A DNA stretch of 64,000 bases from Ectocarpus siliculosus (taxonomy: Eukaryota; Sar; Phaeophyceae; Ectocarpales; Ectocarpaceae): NCBI GenBank assembly GCA_000310025.1, contig FN648540.1:109413-173412 (forward strand), given 5' to 3'. Each line of letters opens with the position of its first letter. Within the stretch, counting starts at the first letter, position 1. A program made the position numbers and the translations under genes. Positions 511-32,743 of this stretch are shown one piece after another. The notes under the pieces are model-generated. The model was not told where the DNA came from. It did not search any database and saw only the letters and a program-made list of their open reading frames with translations.

Positions 511-2282
511 AACGAAGCGGATGCCTGGACGCTTTTGTGGCGGTATTGAATCATCAGTCTTGCGAGCGGCAAGAGAAGCGCTGGTACACGTCGATTCGGG
601 AGCTGCAACTGGTGTCGCTGGAGTTTTGCGGGGTGTGCAGAAGCACCTCGATCTTGCGTGTGCGTGTGGATAGCAGTGCGCCTCCTAGCTTGTGGTCTCC
701 GTACAAATCACAAGCAATACCGGACGATTACGGTGCTGAGGTTCCCATCGCGAGTCGCGTGCCGGCTGTGCGGGCCTATGGTTGGACTTGGTCTATTCCG
801 GCGGACACTCTGCTTAGTATTCCTGACGTTCGGTTTTGGGCACAAACAGAACTGAGCCGTCGGGGATCTTTTCCTGAAGCTAGGCTGGCATCGGTGGTTT
901 GGCCCCAAGGGCTCAAACAGCTGGAATTCGATTTGAACACGGCCGTGGAAAAAGCATCGTGGCCGGCGTCGTTGCAAAGCCTGACGTTTGGACGTAGCTT
1001 CAACCAGCCCATTCTCGGAGCAGTGTGGCCGTCCTCCCTGCAACAGGTTTCACTAGGCCATGACTTCAACCAGCCAATCGATGGAGTCCTGTGGCCGTCT
1101 TCCCTGCGAGAGCTGTCGTTTGGATACAAGTTCAACCAGCCCATAGCCGGCGTCTTGTGGCCTGTCTCCCTGCAGCAGTTAACGTTTGGCAATTGTTTCG
1201 ACAAGCCCATCACTGAAACCGTGTGGCCGGCCTCACTGCAACGCCTATCGTTCGGGGTTTGCTTCGACCAGACTGTCGTCGGAGTTGTGTGGCCGGCCTC
1301 CCTGCAACAACTATCATTCGGGCATTTGTTCAACCACACTATCGCCGGAGTCGTGTGGCCGGCCTCCCTTCAGCAGCTGTCGTTTGGGGACTTCTTTGAC
1401 CAGCCCATCATCGACACCGCGTGGCCGGCCTCCCTTCAGCAGCTATCCTTTGGGGACGAATTCAGCAAGACTATCGTCGGAGTTGTGTGGCCGGCCTCCC
1501 TTCAGCAGATATCGTTTGGGCATGAATTCGACCAGTGCATCGTCGGGGTCGCGTGGCCGGCCTCCCTGCAGAAGATATCGTTTGGCGATCGCTTCAACAA
1601 GCCCATCGCCAGGGTTGCGTGGCCGCCTTGCCTTCAGCAGCTATTGTTCGGCTGCTACTTCAACCAGCCCTTAACCGGAATCAAGTTGCCAGACTCGCTG
1701 CAACAGCTATCGTTGGGCGACCGCTTCAATCAACCCATCGCGGGAATCGGTTGGCCGGCTTCCCTGCCGCAGCTATCTTTCGGATGTTTCTTCAATCAGC
1801 TCATCACCGGGGTGGGTTGGCCGGCCTCACTGCAGCAACTGTCGTTCGGGGATCAATTCAACCAAGCGATGATTGGGGTCGTGTTGCCGGACTCCCTGCA
1901 ACAACTGTCGTTTGGACTCAACTTCAACCAACCGATCGTGGGAGTCGTGTGGCCTGTGTCCCTGCAGCAACTGTCGTTTGGGTACTGCTTTCACCAGCCC
2001 ATCGTCGAAGTATTGTGGCCAGCTGTTCTGAAGCGGTTATCGTTTGGGGATTTGTTTGACCAGCCTATCTCAGGAGTTGTGTGGCCGGCCTCTCTGCAGC
2101 AACTGTCATTCGGGCTCTTCTTCAACCAACCCATCAATGGTGTAACGTGGCCGGCTTCCCTTGAACAGCTATCGTTTGGGGCATGCTTCAATCAGTCCAC
2201 TACCGGAGTCGTGTGGCCAGCCTCCCTACTGCAGTTGTTGTTGGGGGGTATATGTCACGAGCCCATCGTCGGAGTCGTGTGA
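511..2282 (+). CDS. FNIP-repeat protein, copy 1 (3' exon, 21 repeats)
   Basis: This is a large terminal exon of a repeat protein. After an N-terminal region (CLDAFVAVLNHQSC, then a Trp/Tyr-rich stretch) come 21 tandem 22-residue units of the form WPASLQQLSFG..FNQPI. That matches the FNIP repeat family (Pfam FNIP, known from Dictyostelium and other protists), an LRR-like solenoid thought to bind proteins. The first unit (WPQGLKQLEF) and the last are degenerate. No ATG opens the frame. I place the exon start after the acceptor TTGTCTCAG at 508-510, because the paralogue at 13194 has the same AG in the same phase, so an upstream exon with the start codon is expected but not identified. The frame ends in TGA at 2280-2282. 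The 66-bp periodicity creates long shadow ORFs in other frames. Family call is confident; cellular role is unknown. Confidence 0.8.
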
Positions 2283-4295
2283 ACCTGGTGATCGTTGCTT
2301 TGTTGAGCTCAGAGAATTCAGCCGGGGCGAAGAAGAGAACGAAAGCAGAGACACTGATAATACATCAAAAGGATGCTGATGTGGGCAGGACACAAAGCTT
2401 GCCTTTGGTACCGGTGTCGCTTTGATTGAAATTCCTTGGAGAGGGCATTCGGGGCGCAAGTCACTAGAAGGCACCGCTGCGATTTCGTGCGTGTAGCTTT
2501 CCGAGCGGAGAGGACTTGAGCTCGGTAAAATAAACGTGGACAAAATTTCTTGTAGGTTCTTTTGTTTCGGGAGCATAAACCAACCCTATTCGGATTGGAC
2601 AAATATTTTGACGTTGGAGGAGTCCGGCATCGCCGCGAAGGTCAGCAAAACTGTACTTCTGAAACAGGAGAAGAGTCGATCGGAGAATTCGAGCCCACTG
2701 TCGAATTCACCGATATGTACAGGGGTCGCCGCGCTTCGTATCGGGCTATCCGTTTCTAAATCGGCTACAGCTGATTGGGGGGTCAGATAAATGTCTTCGC
2801 TGAGAGCGTGACCCGGTAAGGTTTAGGCTAAATGTGTTGACTGTGGACGGTGCTCCTGCCCTGTCCCCCATGATGCTCACGCCCGTTGGTTGTGCTATAG
2901 TCTCCATTTGCACCTTTAGACAACAATGTTGTTCGGCGGACAAGGCCGCAAAATGAGCCCCACGAGGCGGAAACCATAGGTCCAAACCAGAGAACTGGTG
3001 CCATTGCTCTTGGCGGGCCAACGGCGGAGGGGACGGCCCATCGCCGTCTTATTTGATGGTGCTGTTGAACAACCTGTCGGGGAGCAAGGTTTTGGGGCTG
3101 CAACAGCGTGAAGACACTAAAGGACCCTCCCACGTTCGCACCCTTCGCTGGCAGGATATTTGCGAGCACAGGTAAGGTTTGGTGATGTCCGTGCCTACCA
3201 GGGGAGTCTCTCGACTGTACAGTGATTGCAAACCGTCGAGAAACGAACAACAGCCGAATCGCCGAAACTCTGACTGTCACGATGTGCTGCAGGCTCTAGG
3301 CCTGGGCGACACGGCTCTGACCGCGCTTTTCTCCCGGCTACGGCGACAGAGCGCCAAGACCCCAACGGGGACTGCCCAGAGAGAGTCGTCCAGATCTTGA
3401 GGGCAAGGAGTCTAGATACACCGCCGGGTAGACGTTGATCAGAGGTCGTGAGAAGTCGGAAGTTGTGCGGGAACGGCCAAGGGCAGCGGAGAAGGGCCAT
3501 GGTGGGAAAGACGGGGTGATGAATCGGTGGGAACACCAAAAACAGCAACAGTAATAGCTCTCTTGATGTTTTCCATTGTTTACGCGTGGCGCACAGACTG
3601 ATTCCTCTACAGGACTTTTGTTCCACGCAAATAACATTGCTTCGACGGAGATGCGGTTGTCTTTCTGTAGCACATGGTTGGCATCGCTTCCATGGGGTGG
3701 GTGGACAAAATCAGGTTGGGTGTCTGTGGTTTCTTGCTGAGCCGACAACTTCCTGCATCTCTTTGGATATCCATCCCAGCACAACAACGGAAGCGCTACA
3801 TGTGGCGAAATGTACGTACCAACACTACAATAGACCAGGAGGAAACGAACGAATCAAACAATGACCCCCATCTCCCCGAGTGAATTGTCAACGTCTCCCA
3901 ACGGCGGCAACCCGGGGTGTTCCAGTTCTCTACTACCTGTGACCCCCCGCGCGTCTCTTGGTACGCCCCCCCCACCCATGTACCTATCATTACCGCCATT
4001 GCAAAACCGGCTATGTCACCACCCTTCGATACCTCCGCGGAAGCTACGCCGATCCCTTCCGCGATTGCGCGCAAAGTTGAGTGTAGCATGCTCAGAGTTG
4101 GTATCGAAATTAATACCACCACCGCATGCTCTACTGTTTCAGGAGGTCTGATTCCAAGAGGTGCCGGAATACGCTTGCCCTGATTTGGTCGGTAAGCTCG
4201 ACACGCTTCGTCAGTTGTTGGTGCAGGCTCAGAGGGCTTCTGCTTCGCCGATTCCTGTCTAGACCGCAACATGTCCCTCAGGGCATTCATACCGT
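2283..4295. other. No supported gene
   Basis: The stretch lies between FNIP copy 1 and the first copia element. Several open frames exist on both strands, but none shows a recognisable domain or a consistent exon structure. A 167-codon minus-strand frame ending near 3796 is Ala/Gly/Val-rich and looks membrane-like but matches no family I can name. Confidence 0.4.
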
Positions 4296-4300
4296 GCATA
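4296..4300. repeat. Target-site duplication GCATA (left, element 1)
   Basis: It is identical to 8574-8578 on the far side of the element and lies directly next to the TG terminus of the LTR. Confidence 0.75.
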
Positions 4301-4554
4301 TGTTTGCGGCCTACGCCACCTATTTATCGAGTGAGACTGTTTCGGTGATGGATTAACTTCACGAGAGGTAGACAACCGTCCTTCACACGGACGAAAGAGG
4401 GAGTGCTCCACACAGGGCAACTCCAACAGCAAGGAGGGGCCCCGTGACTCATCGCGGTGCCCCCTACCAAACGGCAATCTTTCCAATCTGCGTGACACCC
4501 AACCATACAGTACATAGACTATATCCAAAACCAATGTTCGCAGACCCACAAACA
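4301..4554 (-). repeat. 3' LTR of copia element 1
   Basis: The 254-bp block begins TGTTTGCGG and ends CCCACAAACA, giving a perfect 6-bp terminal inverted repeat. Its high-coordinate ~90 bases (about 4466-4554) align with 8488-8573 with scattered substitutions and a small indel; the rest has no match at the other end. A minus-strand frame across it (4259-4882) is probably spurious. Confidence 0.65.
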
Positions 4555-4901
4555 CCCTCCCTGGTTCTTCACGCAAGTGACCAACCATCAATGGGGCAAG
4601 AACACCCCTGGATACATCAGAAATACCAACATGGTAATTATGGAGGGGAAACCCGGCATCCGGGCAAAACCCCTCGAAAAAAAACCTACCACCACAAAAA
4701 TCGTCGCTATCACATCGGATCACGACGGCCGCACTTATTAGAAAGGCCAAGGCGAAGACAAGAACGCGAGGAACTACGTTCCCCCGGACGATGGTCTCCC
4801 GACGCCCCCTACTCCTGCCGGTGGTACACAGACCGCAACAGTTATGCGCCTTTCCCCGCATGGTAAACATGACCTCTCCCAAGTGCTAAAACCTGCTACA
4901 G

Positions 4902-5564
4902 CTACTCCGGCATATTCATCAACTTGCGCCGGTGGTACTGCAGACTGACCCTGCTAAGGGCCTTGGTTAGGAGGTCCGCGTGTTGCTCCGTTGTCGGAAC
5001 AAACTTGACCAAAATATCCCCCGACCTAAACAATCCACGGATGAAATGGAACCTCACGTCGATGTGTTTCGTGCGATCTGAGCTGAGGGGGTTCTGCACC
5101 AACGCCATGGCCCCCTGGTCGTCCTCAAGGACCTGGATGCTGCTACGACTGGTCTCTGGGGCAACAAACGAAAGCACAGCACCCACAAACAACGCCTCCT
5201 TTACGCCCTCCCCGGCAGCAATGTATGCGGCTTCCGTCACAGACAAAGACACGATGCTCTGCGTCTTGCTACCATGGCTGACTACGGTACCTCCAACCGT
5301 CGTCGCCAACCCTGACACCGAACGCCTATCCTCCGTGTCGGCGTAGCTAGCGTCTACGTACACGGCCAGCCCTAACCTCGATCCCCGTTGGTAGGTGATG
5401 CCGAGGTCCCTCGTCTCCTTGAAGTAGCCGAGGATCTTCTGTATGGCATCCCAGTGCCTCTTCGCCGGGGCGTGGGCGTGGCGCGCTACCGCACGCACGG
5501 CGAACGAGACGTCTGGACCCGAGAACGTCGACACCCACATCATGCTGCCGATGGCCTCCCTCAC
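4902..5564 (-). pseudogene. copia element 1: RNase H domain
   Basis: This frame encodes the C-terminal part of a copia polyprotein. Recognisable blocks are AVRAVARHAHAP and YVDASYADTEDRRSVSG, then TEAAYIAAGEGVKEALF, DDQGAMALVQNP and TKHIDVRFHFIR, and near the end EQHADLLTKAL. These are the standard copia RNase H signatures (acidic residues in VDASYAD, TEAAY and DDQGA). It is the last coding segment before about 350 bases of untranslated sequence and the 3' LTR. It is separated from the RT fragment upstream by frameshifts. Confidence 0.85.
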
Positions 5565-5642
5565 CGGCCACTCCCCTCCCTCCTCGTCATCTCGCTTCGG
5601 TCCTAGGTCGGCACCAGGAGTAGCGGGGATGTGGAAGGTCGA

Positions 5643-6216
5643 TTACACATCAAAGCGTTTCACCATGCTGTCAATGTACGCGGTTTGGGAGATTCTAAGA
5701 GTCCCAGCCTCTACATCTCTCTCGATGGCGCACCCGTCAAACCAATCGCACTCTCCAAGGTTTTCGGTGGGGAATTTCTTGTTGAGAGAAGCAAGCGACT
5801 CATTGCAATCCTCGTCAGACCAAGCCACCAAAATGTCATCCACGTAGATCACGATAATCATCGCCACGACTTCGTCTACCATCTTGCGGAAAACACACGG
5901 GTCCGCCTTGCACTGTTCGAACCCGTTCTCGACTAAATAGCGTATCAGCAGCATGGTACCCCCACTGCCTACCACTCTGCTTCAGACCGTAAATCGCACG
6001 CTCAGCCTTACCAATTTTATGCGATTTGTCCCCGCACCCAGCGGGGAGCCTCAGAAAAATCTCCTCGTCTAGCGTGGCGTGTGTGTACGCCTGCTTCACA
6101 TCCCAGTGATTGAGGTTCATGCCCTTCTCGTTTCCTACCGCAAGCATCAGTTTAATGGATGCGGATGATGGGCAAGGGGAAGACGAAAGGAAATAGTCCA
6201 CGTTCGGGATTTGCAA
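5643..6216 (-). pseudogene. copia element 1: reverse transcriptase (two frames)
   Basis: Two overlapping minus-strand frames together make a copia RT. The first part (5836-6216) has the LNHWDVKQAYTHA block with the first catalytic Asp, then EEIFLRLPAGCG and RAIYGLKQSGRQW. The second (5643-5975) has CKADPCVF and the catalytic IVIYVDDILVA box. A frameshift around 5960 separates them and another around 6220-6280 separates them from the upstream frame, so the enzyme cannot be made intact. These features are direct evidence of decay. Confidence 0.85.
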
Positions 6217-6279
6217 AAAAAACTAGCAACCAGACGCGCGTAAAACTTGTCTATCTTCCCTTCGTTATTGGTCTTCCAA

Positions 6280-6996
6280 CTAAAACACCACTTTTGAGCT
6301 CACGGGCCTGCGCCCCTCTGGCGCGTCGTCTACGAATGAAAGCGTCCCCGTGCCCAAGTGCCCTTCAAACTCTTCCCTCATGGCCTGTTCCCACCCCTCT
6401 CTGTACACAGACTTGGCAACGCCGGCTACGGTCATGGGGGGGGGGTTTACGTCAATCGGACGCTTGCCTATGGGGGATTCACTTAGCTCGTGGGAGGCCA
6501 GAGCCGTCTCGAAGGCGTCTGGCGAGTTGAGCATGAGGTCCACCGCACCCAGCGGGAAGTCCTCCGCCTCTTGGCGCGCAGCGTGAGCCTCCTCCGCGCG
6601 CTCGAACAGCAACTCTCGCACCACCCTCGCCTCTAGCCCCTCCGCCACGTGAAGTACCGCCGAGAGTATCCAGCGGGTGAACTCCTCCGTGTTGCTGACG
6701 GGCACGCTCGCCACCGAGGCGAGCAGGCCTTCGGCACTTGTCGGCGACGGGGGCGACTCGTACCTCGGGTTTCGGCGAGGGTTCTCCTTGGTGCGGCGGC
6801 TGGTGAGTTTCCCCGGCTTGTCGAAGCGTGCGAGCCGACGGGCCTCTGGCCCGCGGAGCGCCGGGAGATCCGTCTCGCTGCCGCTGCCGCTGCCGCTGCC
6901 GCTGACGCTGCCGCTGCCGCTGCCGCTGACGCCGCCGCTGCTACCGCGGCTGCTGCTGCGGCGGCGGTCGTGCTCGCCGCCGCCCACATCGGCCAT
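6280..6996 (-). pseudogene. copia element 1: integrase-RT linker and RT N-terminus
   Basis: The frame contains a low-complexity Ser/Gly stretch (GSGSGSVSGSGSG, from a GCTGCC-type microsatellite at about 6880-6965). It then shows the region leading into RT (EQAMREEFEGHLGTGTLSFV...GRRPVSSKVVF). The next residues expected of a copia RT (SWKTNNEGKIDKFYARLVA) are present in another frame just downstream, so a frameshift near 6280 breaks the polyprotein. Confidence 0.7.
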
Positions 6997-7439
6997 GCCG
7001 GCCGAAGTGCCATGCCGGCCGAAGTGGTAGATGGGGCGACGCTCGCGCCCTCCCTGCTCGAGGGGGCGCCATCGCCAGCGTCGCCCGCGCCCGACTCCTG
7101 GGGCAAGGTCGGCGGCGCCGCCGGCGCTACGCTCGCGGGCGGCCCCGCGGGCCCCGGGGCTGCCGTCGTGCCAAGGTTGAAACCTGGTCCTCCATCCACA
7201 GGTTCTCCCTCCGCCCCCCCTCCACCTTGGCTCGACGCGCCCTCCCCAACCTCGTTCTCCTTAGTCGCGAAGTCTCCTTCCTCCTCTGCGATGGGAGGCA
7301 GCGACTGGGGCAGGGCGGTGGGGGCGGTGGGTACGGATTGCCAGGTGAAGTTGCGAGTTGTGATCGCTTGGCGTTTTTGGTTCAGGATGCGCACGCAATC
7401 ACGGTTGGTGTTGATTCCCGGGCCGAGGTAAAAACACTT

Positions 7440-8006
7440 TTAGGCTTTCGGTTCGGACTTGTGTGTGCAATTGACCTTGTATACGGCGGGTTTGAGGAAC
7501 GGGTACGTCGCCCCCGGCGGGGGAGGGCGCCCGTGCCACATCTCGTACGGCGATTTCTTCTCTGGGTTGGATGTGGTTGAGGTGCAGTGCAGGGCGTTGC
7601 ATGCCCAAGCTATGGCCTCGGCCCAAAGGGAGGGGTAGTTCGGTGCTCCGGGGTAGAGAGTTGGTGCTTGGGTACGGGCGGCTAGTGCTGCATCCTTGAT
7701 CAGACCCAGTGCTCTCTCAGCTACAACGTTGTATTCTGGGCTGTGTGCGGGGGTGAACTCCTGTTTGATGCAGTACTTCCGGCACACCCTGCCGAACTCT
7801 CCCACAAAAACCTGTCCTCCGTTGTCAGATCTCACGACCATGACATCGGACGGGGCACCGCCTGCCCGGTTTTCTGAAAGGTATCTCTCGAATGCCTCAG
7901 AGGCGTCTGATTTTTGCTTCAGGCAATAGACACGGTTCCACCTTGTGTAATCATCCTTGACAATGAGAGTGTGGTCTTCGCAGCTTGGATGAACGATTTT
8001 CGCCAC
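7440..8006 (-). pseudogene. copia element 1: integrase catalytic core
   Basis: The rve-type core shows the D,D-E residues: DDYTRW, VVRSDNGGQVF and NVVAERALGLIKDAA. After it come WACNALHCT and KSPYEMWHGRPP, typical of copia integrases. The HHCC zinc-binding region that should precede it is absent. The frame instead abuts a gag-like fragment, marking an internal deletion near 7990. Confidence 0.8.
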
Positions 8007-8487
8007 GAATCAAATCCGTGGCTACGGCTTTTTCCGTCTAGAAGCGGGGCATTGACCGTCACTCTTTTCTGGTGGCTACTGCTGTAGCCGTCGAGGTATT
8101 CTCCATTTCCTCGAATCACGGGTATCTCACCTGGGGGGTTTAACCCCCTCGCTTCCCCGTAGTCCGGTCCTATGCCCGGGCCCACTCCGGCTGGTCTCGC
8201 AGGATTCGCTCCCGATCTGCTGGCCCAGCCGCCTTCCAGCAGCTGATGTATTTCTTGTCCACCATATCCTGCTTGCTGGAGAAATCCTCCGCCTCCGCCG
8301 TGCGACTGCAGGGGTTGTTGGCCTCCGGGGGCAGCAACCCAGCCGCCCCTACTGGCTGCATCTGTCACGACGCTGCCAGGCTCCTTCTTCGCCGACTCCT
8401 CCACCAGTTGCAAACTTGCTAGCTCCGCATCGCGGCCCTCCTGCACCGCCGGGTGGATCTGTTCTCCGCTCGCAGAAGTGGGCACCT
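7919..8487 (-). pseudogene. copia element 1: gag-like remnant
   Basis: This minus-strand frame is Gln/Gly/Ala-rich. Near its end it has a segment (PLLDGKSRSHGFDSWRKSFIQAA) resembling the start of copia gag, where a Trp sits in a conserved helix. It is joined by deletion to the integrase core. The identification rests mainly on position, so it is tentative. Confidence 0.4.
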
Positions 8488-8573
8488 CATCTAAACGGCA
8501 GTCATACCAATCTGCGCTACACCCAACCATACAGCACATGTATCCAACACCAATGTTCGCAGACCCACGAACA
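8488..8573 (-). repeat. Truncated 5' LTR of copia element 1
   Basis: About 86 bases match the outer part of the 3' LTR (shared blocks CACCCAACCATACAG and CCAATGTTCGCAGACCCAC). Downstream, the sequence passes directly into gag-like coding sequence, so the rest of this LTR and probably the primer-binding site have been deleted. Confidence 0.6.
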
Positions 8574-8578
8574 GCATA
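8574..8578. repeat. Target-site duplication GCATA (right, element 1)
   Basis: This is the partner of 4296-4300 and directly follows the ...GAACA terminus of the element. Confidence 0.75.
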
Positions 8579-10428
8579 CTCGACTTTCTCCTTGCCGTGT
8601 ACCCTTCTGATCGAGTTTCATGCCATCTCGACCTTCGACAACCGCTTGGCGTAGTCAACCACACGCCTGCTGTGCCACTTACAAGGTTACGAGTCAGGTC
8701 GTTGTAACATCCGCAAAATGATCAACAACCAACCCCGACGGAATCAAAATAATGCCGGGGGGCAGTCTTCACGGGCCCGGACTAGTGTCTAGATACTACC
8801 AGGCCGGTCAACCAGGTACTGCCTGGAGTGCGGGGTCGTTTAGAGCGCACGAATACTTGTTTTCCAACATAACCACGAAATGTAAAATGTGGGGTCGGCA
8901 TACATTACGCGGAGCCTAGACTATGCCATGTTCTACACTAAAACGTTCCCGCCACAGCAGACAACTCTCCAAACTACAGTCTGTAGAAGCTCCGGGTGCG
9001 CCCGCACAAATTGCATCGCATGTGCGTATTTTTTTGGCTGTTGACAAACGGGTAGAATATTGGACCGAGTCTGATATCTCGACTAACGCGAGAGAGCGCA
9101 TTTCGTAGTAACCAGCCCACAAGGAAGTACAACACTTTATCTTCGCCTCTCTCTGTCGCCGTAGCAGCTGACTTGCTGCGTGGTTGAGTGTGCCCGTCGC
9201 TCACATGAATGGGGGAAGTTCTCAGCGCTGTGCTGTGCTGGACAGCGGGAAGCACCAACACCATCAAGCACGCCAAAAGACCCCATCTTGCTTCCGATTA
9301 TGTCCTTGTTGCTTGATGCCGGGGCCGGGGAGTGGTCGCGGAGGGTGGGTGGGCAGGTGATTGGAGCACATGCATGTGGACATGTCATGTGATGTCATGA
9401 TGAACATGTGGGCATGTGGGGGGTTCGCAATTTGAACCAGCACCTCTCCGTTCCGTTCCGATCTACAAGTACGATCTACGATCAAGGTTACCCCGCATGC
9501 GCATGGGCCAATGGCCATGTGTTGACATCTGAGCCCCGTTCCTGTAGCCCCATCGCCATGTCGCATAACAAGCTGCTCCGGCCGATGCCGATTATTCCGG
9601 GAGCTAGCTTGACAAAGACAGGGCTTACGTTTCCGGGAGACAACTTGAGAAAGAGAGGGCGCGCTTTTCCGGGAGGCAGAGGCAGCTTGACACACAGCAG
9701 TAAGGTGAGTTTGGGGAACCGCGACCCTTGGTCTCGCTACAGGCATCCATGGAGTGGGCTGATGGGTTATTTTGGAAGATAGAGACAGCAGGTACGCGGT
9801 ACATATCCCTGCATTATCGATGTTGGTTGGCCTCTATCGTGGCCCTTTGTCTCTCTTGTCTATAGCTACATGAATAACTTGTTGTGCAATCCTTGTGCCG
9901 CACCAGTCTCTCACATCCCTGCTGCTGCTGGTCGATCGCCAACAACACAACAACAATTTTGTTGGCGCGAGGAAATTTCGGTTTCCCTGCGAAATTTCTT
10001 GAACGAATGAGTGATGAAGGCAGGTGATGCGCGCGCAGTTCCTGCTGTACGTCCCCACCTGGGTCATCTTTATCACACAAGCTCCATCAAATGGCCCCTC
10101 GATTGCCAAGCGGCGTTCAAGCAGGCATTTGATGGGGATTATTACAGACAGCTGTGCTTGCGGGAGCGTAGCACGAAAAGGAGGTAGAGAACGGGCCCGG
10201 AAATAAGAACCGTCAGTTCGGGCCGAGGCTCAGTTTCATCGCCCGGCCGTCGAGCACGTTGTTATCTGTAGAGTTTTTACTCTAGGATCCACCGCTGGGT
10301 TGCGCATCTCAGCCCTATATTCTAATTTATTTTTTGTAACAATTAACGGTCTGCGGACAAGGGTGTTGACGCTGGCTCTTTTCCTATACGTTAATCCTAC
10401 AAAAAGAAAGAAAACAACCTTCCCGTTA
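8579..10428. other. No supported gene
   Basis: No recognisable coding sequence was found here. There are degenerate 30-40 bp direct repeats around 9594-9690 (TTCCGGGAG... units) and a CATGTG-rich patch at 9366-9420. Confidence 0.4.
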
Positions 10429-10882
10429 GGTGGTGTATTCTACTTACTGTCATCAGTAGAGGCCACCATGAAGAGGCGTCGTGCGTGCTGGCACGTTCAG
10501 GTTTGCTACCGGAGCTTAGATATCGAAGGTCGCAGCAGCCTCTGAAAACAGCCCGACATCTGCGCCGGAACCAAGCGGCATCCAACATTTGTCACAGCTG
10601 TTTTCACCACCACGGGCCAGACCCTTGTACGGAGGGTTGTCAGCAGCTAGTGGCATCAGCTAGCACTGCTGTTTCCCGGCGTTTTCAGGAGATTGGGGTC
10701 AGGGGCGGCGAGCACGGCTGTGACAAAAGTTGGATGCCGCTTGGTTCCGGCGCAGATTTCGGGCCATTTTCAGAGGCTGCTTCGACCTTTCATATTTCAG
10801 CTCCAGTTGCAAACCTGAACGTGCCAGCACGCACAACGCCTCTTCATAGTGTCGTCTACTGATGACCGTAGAATGCGCCACC
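10429..10882. repeat. Long imperfect inverted repeat (hairpin element)
   Basis: Arm 1 (10429-10600) and arm 2 (10715-10882) are reverse complements with substitutions and small indels, around a 114-base spacer. Shared landmarks are GCACGTTCAGGTTTGC in arm 1 against GCAAACCTGAACGTGC in arm 2, and GGAACCAAGCGGCATCCAAC against GTTGGATGCCGCTTGGTTCC. As a result, similar short frames appear on both strands. It could be a foldback or MITE-like element or a source of hairpin RNA; no target duplication was identified. Confidence 0.75.
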
Positions 10883-13193
10883 CGGCCGTCAAAACTGACC
10901 TTGTTTGAGAGCCTTCCGTTTTGGCTCTTTGACATGAATTTAGATTGGTGTGAATTTTTATCTTGATTTCAAAGGAGGCGTGCGGAGGTAGACGCGTGAA
11001 ATGTATGTTTTGAGCAGCCTCTACTGCCGCCCTGTGCGAGAAGAGAGTAAACAATTTCTGTTTTTCGCGATGCCTTCCGACTGGTATTGCATGTCTCTCG
11101 TGCAATTTTCTGGACTCTTGCGTTTGTTTAAAAAACTTGTCAGCCTCTGTTTCCTAACAAACTTTTTGTGAACTTCGGGCCCATGCTGTACTCAAGATAT
11201 TCCTCTGAGAAAAAGAGAGACCTTCTACTGTAATCCAAGCTGTAGGTTGCCCGGTGCCTCCTTTCATCGGTGGGCGAGATGCTTCTTCCGCGCTTTGCCC
11301 CTAGTAGGGCGAGGGGCCTTCTTGTTCCTGGTTCTGTGCTTTTGGGCCGGGTTCGCTCGTCTCCGAGTTAGTCTACGTGATCGGCAGTTATTGTCGCGTT
11401 TGGACGATACTGTCTGGACCCCTCTTTATTTCGGGTCTTTGATTGCTGGAAAGGTGTACCCCTTTTGGGCAGTTGTTGTTTGGGGTGTTGAGCAGAGCAT
11501 TGGTCTACTAACCTCCGGGGTGGATGATATGATTATGATGGATATGATGCTCGGGGCCTTGTCTTGCCTTGCCCACACATCTCTCACTCGTTAATCAACA
11601 AGATCTTGAGGCAACCTTCTTTGTCTTTCGGCCTCTGACGAAGCTGCCGTACCCAAACAGTTGTTCTATGACCACGGAAAGCGTCCGCGTCAGTTGGACC
11701 ACTATTGTGCGGACGTTGTGAGGTACTGAGCGGAGACCGGAACGGTTTTTCATGTGAAGGCAACAAATATCATCCCGTTTTCTTTTTTTCCGTCCTTTGT
11801 CGTACGTGTGTGTGCACTTTGAGCTTGCACTTGAGCCCATCGATGTGACCAAGGGTGCTCACCAGGATGCAGTGGGCAAAACAGCACGGAGATACATTTT
11901 TTAGATATATATATTTCCATTGGTGGAGTCGCTTTTGTTCGTAACGGACTTTTTGTGCTCAACATGCATGTTTTCTGCCGCAGCGTCTACAGGAGAAGAC
12001 GGGCACAAGAACTCCGGCGCAGGGATCCTCAGCAGCAGCATCGTCAGCGTCAGCATCAGCATCGTCGTCGCCATCGCGTCAAGCACCAAAAAGTTAGTCG
12101 GTGTATCAGTTGGTCAAATGATCCCTTATCCAGCGACAAGTTTTTGTTTTCGTGACGCGCGCCTCTGCTTAGTGTTCCCCCCCTTGCGTTACTAGGGTAG
12201 GAAAGGAGTTGTCAAATCTGCTTCTTGTGTAAACAGGGAACGCCTGTATGTCCTGGTTTTCCAATTTCTCACTCCGGTAGATTCAAAACTACCATCGCGC
12301 CGCCACCGTCCGCAGACGTCGCGACTGCACTAAGATAGGGTGGGGTATTTGCACAGATGCACAGACAGCCTCGTCCGCTTTTCATACCCCCTGCGCTTTT
12401 TTTATTTTTTGCGTGCATTTATTTTTTGCGTGCACATGCCTAGACTACCCCTGTTTTCCCGGGTGTATCTACACAGTATATGGTTCGAAACCAAAAGGCA
12501 CCTCTTGCGTGTGATGATCGGCAGGTCTAATAACAATGCCTTTTCTCTTTTAGGAAGCTTTTCTCTTGTAGGAAGTGTTTCCGGGTGTTTTGCTCCGTTC
12601 GGACCTTGTCAATGGTCTGCCGACCAGCTGACTACCGTGGCCGATAATTACTAGAGAGGGAGAGGCAATGAGCCGCGATGGTGCTGTCCATCATTTTGAG
12701 TCCGACTCTTCGACGAAAAGACAAAATTCCTGCAGCGAACGGCCGTTGGGATGCGTAAGAATAGACCACACACCATACGTACGTGTACGTTCCCCACCGA
12801 TTTGTGTTGTCGGTGGTTTCTCTGCACAGAGTGAACCAGCAGCAATGGCAAGTACCGCGAGTGGTGTGTATGCAACGTCTTGTGTTGTGGCTGATAGAGC
12901 CCGTGGGACATGGAACCCACGGAATCTGAGGTGGCGAGATGCGAGAGTCGACAACACATACTCCAGAGTATATGCATGCGAGAACAACCCTACCGCCTAA
13001 AAACAAATATGCATGCTCTGCTTCATTTTTGCCCCGTGGCACAGATTTGTTTCCATATCATTCTCCCTTGCTCTCCTTGCTCTGCTTCGTCTGTAGGCTC
13101 TCTTTCTTCACCCATTCGCTCAGCACGAAGCCGCCCCAAGCCCATAATTTTTTTTTGTATTATTTCTTTTGTTTTTTCCACGCATTATCTCAG
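10883..13193. other. No supported gene (contains upstream sequence of FNIP copy 2)
   Basis: Short open frames only. A small tandem duplication (TTTATTTTTTGCGTGCA, twice) lies at 12401-12437. From about 13105 the sequence aligns with the region upstream of FNIP copy 1 (shared ATTCGCTCAGCA.GAAGC), so the duplication unit includes the preceding intron. Confidence 0.45.
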
Positions 13194-14470
13194 AACAAAG
13201 CCTGTGCCTGGACGCGTTTGTGGCGGTACTGAATCATCAATCTTGCGAGGAAGGACTAAAGCGCTGGTACACGTCTATTCGGGAGCTACAGCTGGTATCG
13301 CTGGAGTTTTGCGGGGTGTGCAGAAGCACCTCGATCTTGCGTGTGCGTGTGGATCACAAAGCGCCTCCTAGCTTGTGGTCTCCTACCAAATCTTTCTCGT
13401 ACGCCCTACCGGACGCTTGGAATCGCGTGCCGACTGTGCGGGCCTATGGTTGGACTTGGTCGATTCCGGTGGATACTCTGTTGAAGGTTCGTGACCTTCG
13501 ATATTGGGCGCAAACGGAACTGAGCCGTCGAGGATCTTTCCCTGAAGCAAAGCTGGCATCAGTGGTTTGGCCCCAAGGGCTCAAACAGCTGGAATTCGAT
13601 TTGGACACGGCCGTGGAAAAAGCATCGTGGCCGGCGTCATTGCAAAGCCTGGCGTTTGGATGTAGCTTCAACCAGCCCATTCTCGGAGCAGTGTGGCCGT
13701 CCTCCCTGCAACAGGTTTCACTGGGCCATGACTTCAACCAGCCAATCGATGGAGTCCGGTGGCCGTCTTCCCTGCGAGAGCTATCGTTTGGATACAAGTT
13801 CAACCAGCCCATAGCCGGCGTCTTGTGGCCGGGTTCGCTGGAGACCCTATCGTTTGGCAATTGCTTCGACCAGCCTATCACTGAAACCGTGTGGCCGCCC
13901 TCACTGCAGCAACTATCGTTTGGGCATTGCTTCGACCAGGGTATCGTCGGAGCTGTGTGGCCGGCCTCCCTTCAGCAGCTATCGTTTGGGTATCAATTCA
14001 ACAAAACTCTCGCCGGGGTTGTGTGGCCGGCGTACTTGCAGAGGCTGTTGTTCGGGCATTTCTTCAACCAACCCATCGCCGAAGTCTGGTGGCCGGCCTC
14101 CCTGCAACAGCTTTCGTTTGGAGGTTCATTCAACCAACCCGTCACCGGGGTCTCGTGGCCGGCTTCACTGCAGCAACTGTCGTTCGGAGGCTTCTTCAAC
14201 CAACCCATCACCCAAGTAGTCTGGCCGGCCTCCCTGCAACAGCTATCGTTTGGGGCGTTGTTTAACCAGCCCATTGCCGGGGCCTCGTGGCCGGCGTCAC
14301 TGCAGCAGCTCTCCTTTGGGGATAACTTCAACCAGCCCATAGCCGGCGTCTTGTGGCCGGGTTCGCTGCAGGACCTATCGTTCGGGTTTGGTTTCATGCA
14401 ATCTGCTAGAGGGGTTGTGTGGCCGGCCTCCTTAAGAAGCGTGGCTCTTGGGGGAACCAAGCTCCTATGA
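13194..14470 (+). CDS. FNIP-repeat protein, copy 2 (3' exon, 14 repeats)
   Basis: This is a paralogue of the gene at 511-2282. The N-terminal region and repeat units 1-5 are nearly identical to copy 1, including the intron sequence upstream and the acceptor (TTATCTCAG at 13185-13193). From unit 6 on the two diverge, and this copy has only 14 units of 22 residues before its stop at 14468-14470. A short insertion/replacement distinguishes the linker before RAYGW (TKSFSYALPD here, YKSQAIPDDY in copy 1). Units 4-5 and 12-13 share a run of about 43 identical bases, which suggests internal recombination. As in copy 1 there is no ATG in this exon, so the first exon lies upstream and is not identified. 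Function is unknown; the solenoid suggests a binding protein. Confidence 0.8.
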
Positions 14471-29111: not shown

Positions 29112-30500
29112 TCAACGAATATTCATCACAAAGTCGCGATGAGCGCAAAAAGCCTCCTTGGGGAGCGGTTTAGTCAGGAAATCCGCGTGTTGTAGGTCCG
29201 AACGTACGTGGACTACCTTGAACTCGCCCCGCGCGACACGCTCACGGATGAAATGGTGGCGAATGTCGATGTGCTTCGAGTTAGGGGTCGTAGCCGGGTT
29301 ACTTGCCAAGTGAATAGCGCCTACATTGTCCTCCCACACCGGAGTGCACCCCACATCACGGTCCGGAAAGATAAAACTCCAGAGATACCGCAGAAAAATA
29401 GCCTCCTTCAGCCCCTCAGACATCGCCACGTACTCCGCTTCCGTCGAAGACAAGGTGACGCTCTTCTGCGTCCTACACAGATACATCACACACGCACCAG
29501 CGAACATCACTAGTGCCCCAGAAACAGACCGCCGGCCGGTTGCCTTGCTGGCGAAGTCCGCATCGACAAAAAGTTCCATGTGGTCTCCTCCTACCTTGCC
29601 CCTCTGAAAAGTAATACCGTACTCGCTCGTGGATCTAACATACATCAAGACATGCAAAGCCGCTTGCCAGTGTAATCGCTTCGGCGCGTGCGAATACCTC
29701 GCAACGGCACGTACCGCGTTGAGAATATCCGGGCGAGTCTGATTCGCCAGCCACATCAAGTGTCCCACCAGCGACCGGAAAGGCGCGTCAACATCGGGCT
29801 CGTCGGCGTCATACTGCTCAAGCTTCAAACCAACGACCATGGGTGTCTCTTTGTTCGTCGTCACACCGAACTTGGCGACGATCTTCTCCGCTACAGCCTG
29901 CTGCGAAATAGTCACTGTCCCCAACGCCGTGTCACGAGAAAACCGGCAACCCGCATACCAGCGCAGTTCCCCAAGGTTGGAGATGGGCACATACCGGTTG
30001 AGATCTACACCAAACTGGTCGCACCTGCTCTTACGTCCGATAGAAAAGATGTCGTCCACGTGGATCACAACCACCATGGTGACTACACCGCTCTCGATCA
30101 GACGCATCACACACGCATCGGCAGCACAAGACTCGAAACCAAGACGCTTCATGCCACGCATCAAGTGGTGATGCCATGTGCGGGACGCCTGCTTCAGACC
30201 GTAAAGACTCCGTCTCAACCGAACGACCTTACCGGAAAGCGCGCCGCACCCAGGGGGTAGACGAATGTACACAACCTCATCCAGTTCCGATTGGACAAAG
30301 GCTTGCTCGGCATCGAAATGGCACGTATCCCAACCCAGCACACAGGCAATAGCGGCTAACAAACGAATGCTCGTGATGGAAGGGCAAGGGGAGAAAGTTT
30401 CAAAGAAGTCAACACCCTCACGCTGCGCAAACCCACGGGCCACCAACCTAGCTTTAGCACGCACACGCTGCCCAAACTCGTCTACCTTCCATGAATACAC
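29112..30500 (-). pseudogene. copia element 2: reverse transcriptase and RNase H
   Basis: The 462-codon frame is in phase with the integrase frame. The RT starts with KARLVARGFAQREGVDFFETFSP, then HFDAEQAFVQSELDE, RLPPGCG, RSLYGLKQASRTW and the catalytic VVIHVDDIF (His replaces the usual Tyr before VDD). RNase H follows: VDADFASKATGRRSVSG, TEAEYVAMSEGLKEAIF, EDNVGAIHLASNP, SKHIDIRHHFIRE, QHADFLTKPLPKE. All domains look complete, so apart from the upstream TAG and missing gag/protease the enzyme segment could be functional. Confidence 0.92.
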
Positions 30501-30533
30501 CCACTTGGAGGAGATGACGTTCGTTCCTCGTTG

Positions 30534-32711
30534 CTATTCCGCCCCGACCTCCTGAAAGGTGCCCGCTGCGTTCAGCCCGCAAAACTCCTTGTGTTCGGCG
30601 TGGGTCCAGATGTGGTGGTGTGGCCCCGCGTGCGCCGCCGCGTATGTCTCAGGCGTCTCCTGGTCGTACGCCGGCCCTGTCGGTAAGTCTGGCTCAGAAA
30701 CGCCCGGCGAAGGAAGCTCGGCAATGGACCGTTTGATCTCGTCCTCCATGGCTAGAAGCGCGAAAATCCCCGGCACCCGCCCATCTCGCTTCGCGCGCGA
30801 CCTCGTCACGGCGGGCGTCGCTACAAACCCCTGCTGCCCCTGCCGACGCACGCCGGTACCACCCTCATGCTCCACCTCCGTCCACGCTCCGTCTGGTGCC
30901 AGCGGCGCCGCCGCCGGAGCTGCTGCCGATGCCGCCGCTCCTGCCGCCACCGCGGGGACCCCGGCCGCCCCCCCCGCCGCCGCCGCGGGGAAAACACTGC
31001 CGCCAGAGGTCGCCGCCGTCGCCGCCGGAGCTGCTGCCGATGCCGCCGCTCCTGCCGCCACCGCGGGGACCCCGGCCGTTCCCCCCGCCGCCGCCGCGGG
31101 GAAAACACTGCCGCCAGAGGTCGCCGCCGTCGCCGCCGGAGCTGCTGCCGATGCCGCCGCTCCTGCCACCACCGCGGGGACCCCGGCCGTTCCCCCCGCC
31201 GCCGCCGCGGGGAAAACACTGCCGCCAGAGGTCGCCGCCGTCGCCGCTTGAGCTGCTGCAGATGCCGCCGCTCCTGCCGCCACCGCGGGGACCCCGGCCG
31301 TTCCCCCCGCCGCCGCCGCGGGGAAAACACTGCCGCCAGAGGTCGCCGCCGTCGCCGCTTGAGCTGCTGCCGATGCCGCCGCTCCTGCCGCCACCGCGGG
31401 GACCCCGGCCATCCCTCCTACCGACCCCCAAGAACGTCCATCCCCCCGAAAGCCCTCGCTGCTGAATCCAAAAGTACCGTGTTCGGAGTACGTGGGCACC
31501 CCAGCCTGAGTGAGAATTTTGTGCGTCGCCGAGGAATGATCGTGGCCTGAGTTCAGGTAGAAGCACCGCTCCCCCTTGCTGTGCATCTTTGACGGGCGGT
31601 GACGGTGGCGGAAGCCGGGCATCATGAACGGTAGCGCCACCCTGATCCTCCTCTTGCCGTACAGCTTAACCTCCGGGCACCTCTTGTCTTCCTTGCTCAC
31701 CTCAGCAGCGATGTTCAAAGAATCGTTCATCCACGCGAAAGCCTCGGGCCAGATGGCCCGGAAGGACAGCGCCTTGGTCGGGTACAGAACTCCGGGGAAA
31801 AGCTTCGGGTATTCCAGAAACCCAGCCTTGCCTCCCTCCATCACTAGCGCGATCCTCCGCTCCACACGACCGTTGCTCTTGGGCCCGTCGACCGCCGTAA
31901 GCTCCCGCGTAACGTTCAGTTCCGCCAGCAGTCCCCGAAACTCCTCGTTGACCCACTCGGTACCGTTGTCGGTCAAAACACAGCCCAGCTCCCCGTGAGT
32001 AGCCAAGAGAGCCTTGATGGAGGCGTACCACGCACGGAACGCGCCCACGACGTTTGCACCACTCTTCTCCCGCAAGAAGAAAGTCCACCCGTAGTTGGTG
32101 TGGTGGTCCAAGATCTGCATCAAGTACTTGGCACCACCGCTGGATGAGCCGAAAGGACCGGCTAGGTCCATGGCGACACGTTCAAGAGGCCGCGTCGTCC
32201 GGCGGGAAGGGGAGATGACCTTGGGGACCGAGCGCTGGATCGCCTTCGACTCCGCACATCCATCACAGTACTCCGGAGTGCCGGTCACCTTGATGCCCAT
32301 CTGCTTAGCGGTCTCGTACACGGTCTTGGAGTTGGCATGGCCGAGGGAGCAGTGAAGATCGTTGTAGTTGATACTAGACTGCAGGCCAGGCCGTAGCATC
32401 GCCGCGACCATTGCGGGGGATTTGACGTGGTGGGGTAGGGGATCGACGCGAGTCCCCTGGATGTAATTCCCGTGCGGGAATTTGGTGAATTGCACTAGCC
32501 CCCCCCAAATCGATGCCCCATGCCGGTTGAGCTTGATCTCATGACGTTCCTGGATCTGGTTCAGCGACAGAACATCTAACGCCAAGTCCGGTACCACGCC
32601 AACATTCTTCAGCGTAACACGCACATCCTCATGGCAATGGAAAATCATATCCAAATCACCGAAGAACTCTACCGGGATAAGCTTGCCGTCGCCAAGCAGC
32701 TCAGACGCCAA
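30534..32711 (-). pseudogene. copia element 2: protease remnant, integrase and linker
   Basis: The frame opens inside the protease C-terminal flank (LGDGKLIPVEFFGDL, then VGVVPDLALDVLSLNQI); the catalytic DSGA-type motif is missing. The integrase is intact: the zinc-binding HHCC region (LHCSLGHANSKT, CDGCAESKA) and a DDE core (VAMDLAGP, CVLTDNGTEWVNEEF, NGRVERRIALVMEGG). It is followed by a proline/alanine region with 111-bp coding repeats. The frame ends at a TAG (30534-30536) within the segment leading into RT. The RT/RNase H frame resumes in the same phase, so this is a single nonsense codon rather than a frameshift. No ATG is needed because this would be part of a polyprotein. Confidence 0.9.
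30905..31430 (-). repeat. 111-bp tandem coding repeat in element 2
   Basis: The landmark GGGAAAACACTGCCGCCAGA recurs with AAAA at 30991, 31102, 31213 and 31324, exactly 111 bases apart. About 4.7 units encode a 37-residue Ala/Gly-rich block (AGVPAVAAGAAASAAA, then ATSGGSVFPAAAAGG). Because 111 is a multiple of 3, the frame stays open. Confidence 0.9.
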
Positions 32712-32743
32712 TACCCACTACCAACACCAGGCCCAATATATTG

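Follow-up and report, generated by a model that had tools for sequence, protein, structure and literature searches.

Two FNIP-repeat genes on contig C104

The window, by which we mean the whole 64,000-nucleotide stretch that was analysed (C104:109413-173412 of the 189.5 Mb, 492-contig Ectocarpus siliculosus genome), carries on its forward strand two exons, g1 (511-2282) and g2 (13194-14470), each of which encodes a head followed by an array of 22-residue repeats in one open frame. Both match the FNIP family (PF05725), g1 with a Pfam E value of 4.4e-79 over 14 matching stretches and g2 with 9.7e-70 over 12, so that their FNIP identity is far beyond chance. The head of g1 (511-959) includes a degenerate cap unit at 894-959 and is followed by 20 units of 22 codons (960-2282, stop codon at 2280-2282) with the consensus WPASLQQLSFGxxFNQPIxGVV, while the head of g2 spans 13194-13627 and is followed by 12 complete units and a partial one of 16 residues (13628-14470, stop codon at 14468-14470). 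With the cap counted in each gene, these figures reproduce the 21 and 14 units that had been read from the sequence alone. No Pfam match, including to F-box or kinase domains, was found in the head exon.

Neither exon has an in-frame methionine codon near its start, and both open in the same phase at the acceptor ctcag/AAC, which implies an upstream exon. Comparison of 30 upstream regions for this first exon revealed conserved stretches and no clear coding exon. Among diverged paralogues, four loci (L005, L012, L020 and L028) show scattered, all-frame conservation of DNA approximately 400-600 bases before the acceptor of the head, possibly representing a promoter, a 5' UTR or the first exon.

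The two genes are separated by approximately 11 kb of DNA that contains the remnants of a copia-type retrotransposon on the minus strand (4902-8009), recognised by matches to reverse transcriptase (RVT_2) and integrase (rve); a second, longer copia-type element with RVT_2 and rve matches lies further along the window, also on the minus strand (29112-32717). Within g2, approximately 42 identical bases (ttcaaccagcccatagccggcgtcttgtggccgggttcgctg) are present at 13799-13840 (units 3/4) and again at 14327-14368 (units 11/12), likely explained by a recent exchange inside the array. Upstream of the window, further FNIP heads at C104:63589 and C104:66521 each have a stop codon in one of their matches and are apparently decayed copies.

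g1 and g2 are two of about 100 related genes

A search of the genome for the head, in which every candidate was scored, gave 103 head-bearing places on 38 contigs. The locus therefore does not hold the only two copies, and the repeat-bearing family that had been proposed from these two genes exists: judged from their sequences, g1 and g2 are ordinary members of an FGxxFN-type leucine-rich-repeat (LRR) family of about 100 genes. The heads are clustered, with 51 of the 103 lying less than 50 kb from another (5.5 expected). Among the members that we read, a sample of 77 open frames from 69 regions rather than the whole family, median head identity is approximately 44% (1335 pairs). The 33 complete genes of a first set have between 6 and 22 units, and the maximum rose to 24 after a second set was added, so that the variability in unit number noted for g1 and g2 extends across the members of one genome, and unit order has been lost in most of the gene pairs compared. 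The view that FNIP proteins are little described outside amoebozoans is outdated, since 121 have been reported in Saccharina (PMC4421812), and 104 in Ectocarpus (printed as 'Endocarpus') and about 70 in the giant virus CroV (PMC9525666).

Crystal structures are available for two of the CroV FGxxFN/FNIP LRR proteins, Crov539 and Crov588 (7ZAL and 6NYR; PMC9525666). Units of the family conform to the 22-residue LxxLxFGxxFNQPIxxVxWPxx pattern of the Crov539 sub-class, which is marked by P at 13 and WP at 19-20 in the numbering of PMC9525666, with W, P, L, L, F, G, F, N, Q, P and I occupying their positions in 91, 96, 94, 89, 83, 88, 95, 74, 80, 76 and 75% of units, respectively, and a match to Crov539 is found at E 3e-58. 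The predicted structure of the array is an LRR solenoid, mostly with pLDDT above 90, whose best PDB matches are Crov588 and Crov539, followed by internalin A and other LRR proteins; the fold predicted for the head has a pLDDT below 50.

Variation is concentrated in two codons of each unit

Across 771 units, positions 12 and 13 have entropies of 3.99 and 4.02 bits of a possible 4.32, compared with 0.3-0.9 bits at the framework anchors W1, P2, L5, L8, F10, G11 and F14. This hypervariable pair is the xx of FGxxFN, encoded by codons 12-13 of each unit (hereafter the cassette). In the FNIP proteins of CroV the xx residues are likewise the most variable ones and lie on the edge of the concave face (PMC9525666), and it is from there that we infer a ligand-facing placement of codons 12-13. 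The diversification of the array that had been claimed for g1 and g2 thus holds in a sharper form, in that diversity is confined to two codons per unit at the predicted ligand-facing edge.

An age-calibrated comparison of rates was provided by one young tandem trio on contig C6, whose genes A (C6:3127815-), B (C6:3140146-) and C (C6:3163927-, with a frameshift) share near-identical heads and upstream DNA and have arrays that are offset by whole units. Between A and B, 34 of 1162 non-coding upstream positions differ (2.9%), as do 9/450 in the head (2.0%), 35/855 in the unit framework (4.1%) and 8/137 at four-fold framework sites (5.8%). Codons 12-13, by comparison, differ at 31/90 positions (34%), or 11.8 times the non-coding rate (95% CI 7.2-16.7); the corresponding ratios are 14.8 (9.2-20.4) for A-C and 5.2 (1.3-10.5) for B-C. 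Since the head diverges about as much as non-coding DNA and the cassette far more, it is the cassette that is accelerated and not the head that is slowed. Purifying selection does not prevail across all repeats, pN/pS at codons 12-13 being 2.76 for A-B and 1.81 for B-C (0.23 and 0.34, respectively, elsewhere); the ratio is 0.74 for an older pair on C45 and 0.26 for g1/g2, comparisons that are saturated or involve few units.

Cassettes change together with an adjacent silent base

The third base of the Gly11 codon, which is silent, differs in 5 of 14 A-B units, against 2.9% divergence in non-coding DNA; B-C taken alone gives a weak signal (1/12). When the trio and the C45 pair are pooled, differences at this base occur in 13 of 29 units with an altered cassette and in 0 of 17 with an unaltered one (p 7e-4), and other silent sites show no association with cassette change (p 1.0). 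Expressed relative to the difference expected if a randomly chosen unit of that gene had taken its place, changed trio units differ by 0.68 (codons 12-13), 0.59 (Gly11), 0.42 (codons 9-10), 0.19 (codons 14-16) and 0.10 (codons 17-22). The alignments thus show codons 12-13 and the silent Gly11 base changing en bloc, at a rate far above that of the flanking DNA.

The same cassettes, along with their nearest silent sites, also recur in otherwise dissimilar units of one gene. Among units of the same gene that share a six-base cassette on a framework of background similarity (25 genes, 35 gene-cassette groups), concordance at the third base of Gly11 is 0.82 vs 0.48 (Wilcoxon p 6e-4), with a smaller excess at positions 9.3, 10.3 and 15.3, while positions 8.3 and 16.3 show no excess. 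Cassette-sharing units on different contigs show almost no such excess (0.40 vs 0.34 in the control), which argues against an effect of neighbouring bases on Gly11. Equal residue pairs are encoded by identical DNA in 59% of same-gene cases and in 20% of cases across contigs, so that copying explains the shared cassettes better than convergence on the same residues does. Moreover, cassettes are shared within genes more often than in within-gene shuffles, both at framework identity below 80% (21 vs 10.2) and at 80-90% (44 vs 12.7). In the trio, unit 12 of A carries exactly the seven bases found in B6 and C9, the counterparts of unit 7, and B and C keep a different cassette at the unit-12 position; among the sequences examined, an exact donor was found for 1 of 7 polarised cassette changes.

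We favour a reading, to which we assign a probability of roughly 0.6, in which about 100 LRR genes diversify by the copying of cassettes between units through very short conversion, by diversifying selection and by the gain and loss of units, and serve in recognition. Each gene joins a conserved head to a curved LRR solenoid; the framework WPASLQQLSFG..FNQPI is kept in every 22-residue unit while the xx of FGxxFN is hypervariable. In this reading, templated conversion tracts of approximately 15-25 bases would copy cassettes between units, new combinations of cassettes would be favoured by diversifying selection, whole units would be gained and lost, and the succession of xx pairs along the array would set ligand specificity. 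That the proteins act in recognition, in defence or in the distinction of self from non-self, is the less certain part, suggested by the fold, the number of copies and where the variable residues lie. Conversion itself imports nonsynonymous variety, and a pN/pS above 1 is therefore no proof of selection; in PRDM9, too, conversion makes formal dN/dS tests unreliable (PMC3890296). We regard diversifying selection as the likeliest cause of the excess of nonsynonymous change, though not the sole candidate.

Point mutation under strong diversifying selection on two surface codons, with no templated copying, would account for most differences being nonsynonymous and for first and second codon positions inside the cassette changing more than third positions. 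If these forces acted alone, however, silent sites next to the cassette would be expected to diverge at the neutral rate, which the Gly11 base does not do, either in the pooled counts or in A-B, and the sharing of cassettes together with their silent flanks within genes also speaks against this explanation, which we consider unlikely. Similarly unlikely, in our estimation, is a bolder version of the copying model in which a process targeted to these loci, in the germ line or the soma, would copy the cassettes of approximately 15-25 bases and the roughly 100 LRR proteins would form a rapidly renewed recognition repertoire; if true, its logic would be comparable to that of lamprey VLR assembly and of PRDM9 arrays. 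It is more doubtful still that the xx residues are merely unconstrained and that the divergence stems from ordinary unequal crossing-over and the duplication of units. The widely varying unit numbers and the loss of unit order would fit such a process, but sites free of constraint are expected to change no faster than non-coding DNA, a rate that codons 12-13 exceed 5-15 fold, and duplication of whole units predicts concordance across the unit rather than a peak at the cassette.

Divergence along g1 and g2

The sequence-only reading had described the N-termini of g1 and g2 as almost identical, whereas their heads are 86% identical in protein, with pS 0.257 and pN 0.118 over 516-883. The upstream intron is shared as far as its last 100 or so bases (410-510 in g1, 13079-13193 in g2, by local alignment), which diverge about as much as the head, and its remainder cannot be aligned. 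Similarly, the close resemblance reported for units 1-5 holds for units 1-3 (95-98% DNA identity) and falls in units 4-6 to 78-83% (pS 0.36), compared with a background of approximately 66-70% between units. From unit 7 on the arrays have diverged, as had been claimed, to the point that units show no orthology and resemble each other no more closely than arbitrary units do, so that dN/dS cannot be computed there; the 3' flanks are unrelated. A simple recent swap of the tail of g1 or g2 is not supported, since a search of the genome gave no donor for either tail, the best matches being 73-79% identical.

Between 884 and 1162, at the end of the head and in units 1-3, g1 and g2 differ at 8 of 279 bases (pS 0.060, pN 0.019), a divergence so low that it was reached in 0 of 5000 permutations (Fisher p 0.002 for synonymous change). 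This segment is best read as a candidate gene-conversion tract. It is also the observation that favours a view in which the head, as the sequence-only reading proposed, is homogenised, here by gene conversion, while the tails drift apart. The tract, however, covers mainly the start of the array, the remainder of the head has diverged much as the intron has, the heads of the trio diverge much as their non-coding flank does, and heads across the family have only the modest identity given above; homogenisation of the head is thus very improbable.

Relatives of the family and known systems

The idea that these are remnant or domesticated giant-virus FNIP genes that lack a present role in recognition, or stoichiometric antagonists of viral factors, is the least probable of all: the closest solved and predicted relatives are indeed viral (CroV, together with Gaeavirus and Pithovirus LCPAC001 proteins matched in a library of viral structures), and viral association in brown algae has been discussed (PMC4421812, PMC2373305), but stop codons interrupt only 7 of the 103 heads, the head yielded no viral relative, three pattern scans of viral contigs, whose short degenerate patterns miss diverged repeats, gave no relative, and a role in recognition is compatible with shared viral ancestry.

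Crov539 and Crov588 resemble the family in their 22-residue register (consensus LxxLxFGxxFNQPIExVxWPxx in Crov539), their variable xx and their membership of large families; they differ in being viral and in having no such head, and diversification of xx was not measured there. Reports of brown-algal FNIP proteins (PMC4421812, PMC9525666) concern the same Pfam family at similar copy number and with the WP sub-motif, but give counts and a repeat phylogeny only and describe no evolutionary mode, head or selection. The FNIP families of Dictyostelium and the F-box FNIP proteins of mimiviruses have the FNIP array in common with the family, the head exon of which has no F-box or kinase match.

In its coding tandem repeats, conserved framework, hypervariable contact residues, turnover of units and gene conversion, the zinc-finger array of PRDM9 (PMC3890296) is similar; PRDM9, however, is one gene whose zinc fingers bind DNA, whereas the present family comprises about 100 genes built of LRR units, and its tracts seem to be limited to approximately 15-25 bases. 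The LRR-ROCO and NB-TPR genes of brown algae (PMC11378527) are likewise proposed immune receptors built of repeats with variable concave residues. The comparison with brown-algal LRR/TPR genes that had been suggested fails mechanically, because these exon-shuffled genes have one repeat per exon, whereas the 20 units of g1 lie in a single open frame. They also have ROC or NB domains; among 24 members of the present family, the FNIP exon gave no Pfam match to a ROC-COR or NB domain.

Earlier work had already recognised both the family and its variable positions, and it is the mode of diversification that appears to be undescribed for it: we found no description in the literature on FNIP proteins and Ectocarpus or on gene conversion in brown algae, subscription papers being mostly outside the scope of that search. 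The case for a diversified recognition repertoire in brown algae has so far been built on LRR and TPR genes with shuffled exons, and young tandem copies, the C6 trio among them, allow a direct test of it. The FNIP genes form a separate family, numbering about 100 and with relatives of solved structure, that changes fastest exactly at the residues thought to touch the ligand, the pattern expected of proteins that need ever-changing binding, and the way in which the cassettes are altered has left a signature at the level of single bases.

We note that the members at C174:26041+, C27:2062058- and C30:446667-, along with related ones, include some with regularly irregular inter-unit spacings (46 and 35 residues), a second array architecture.
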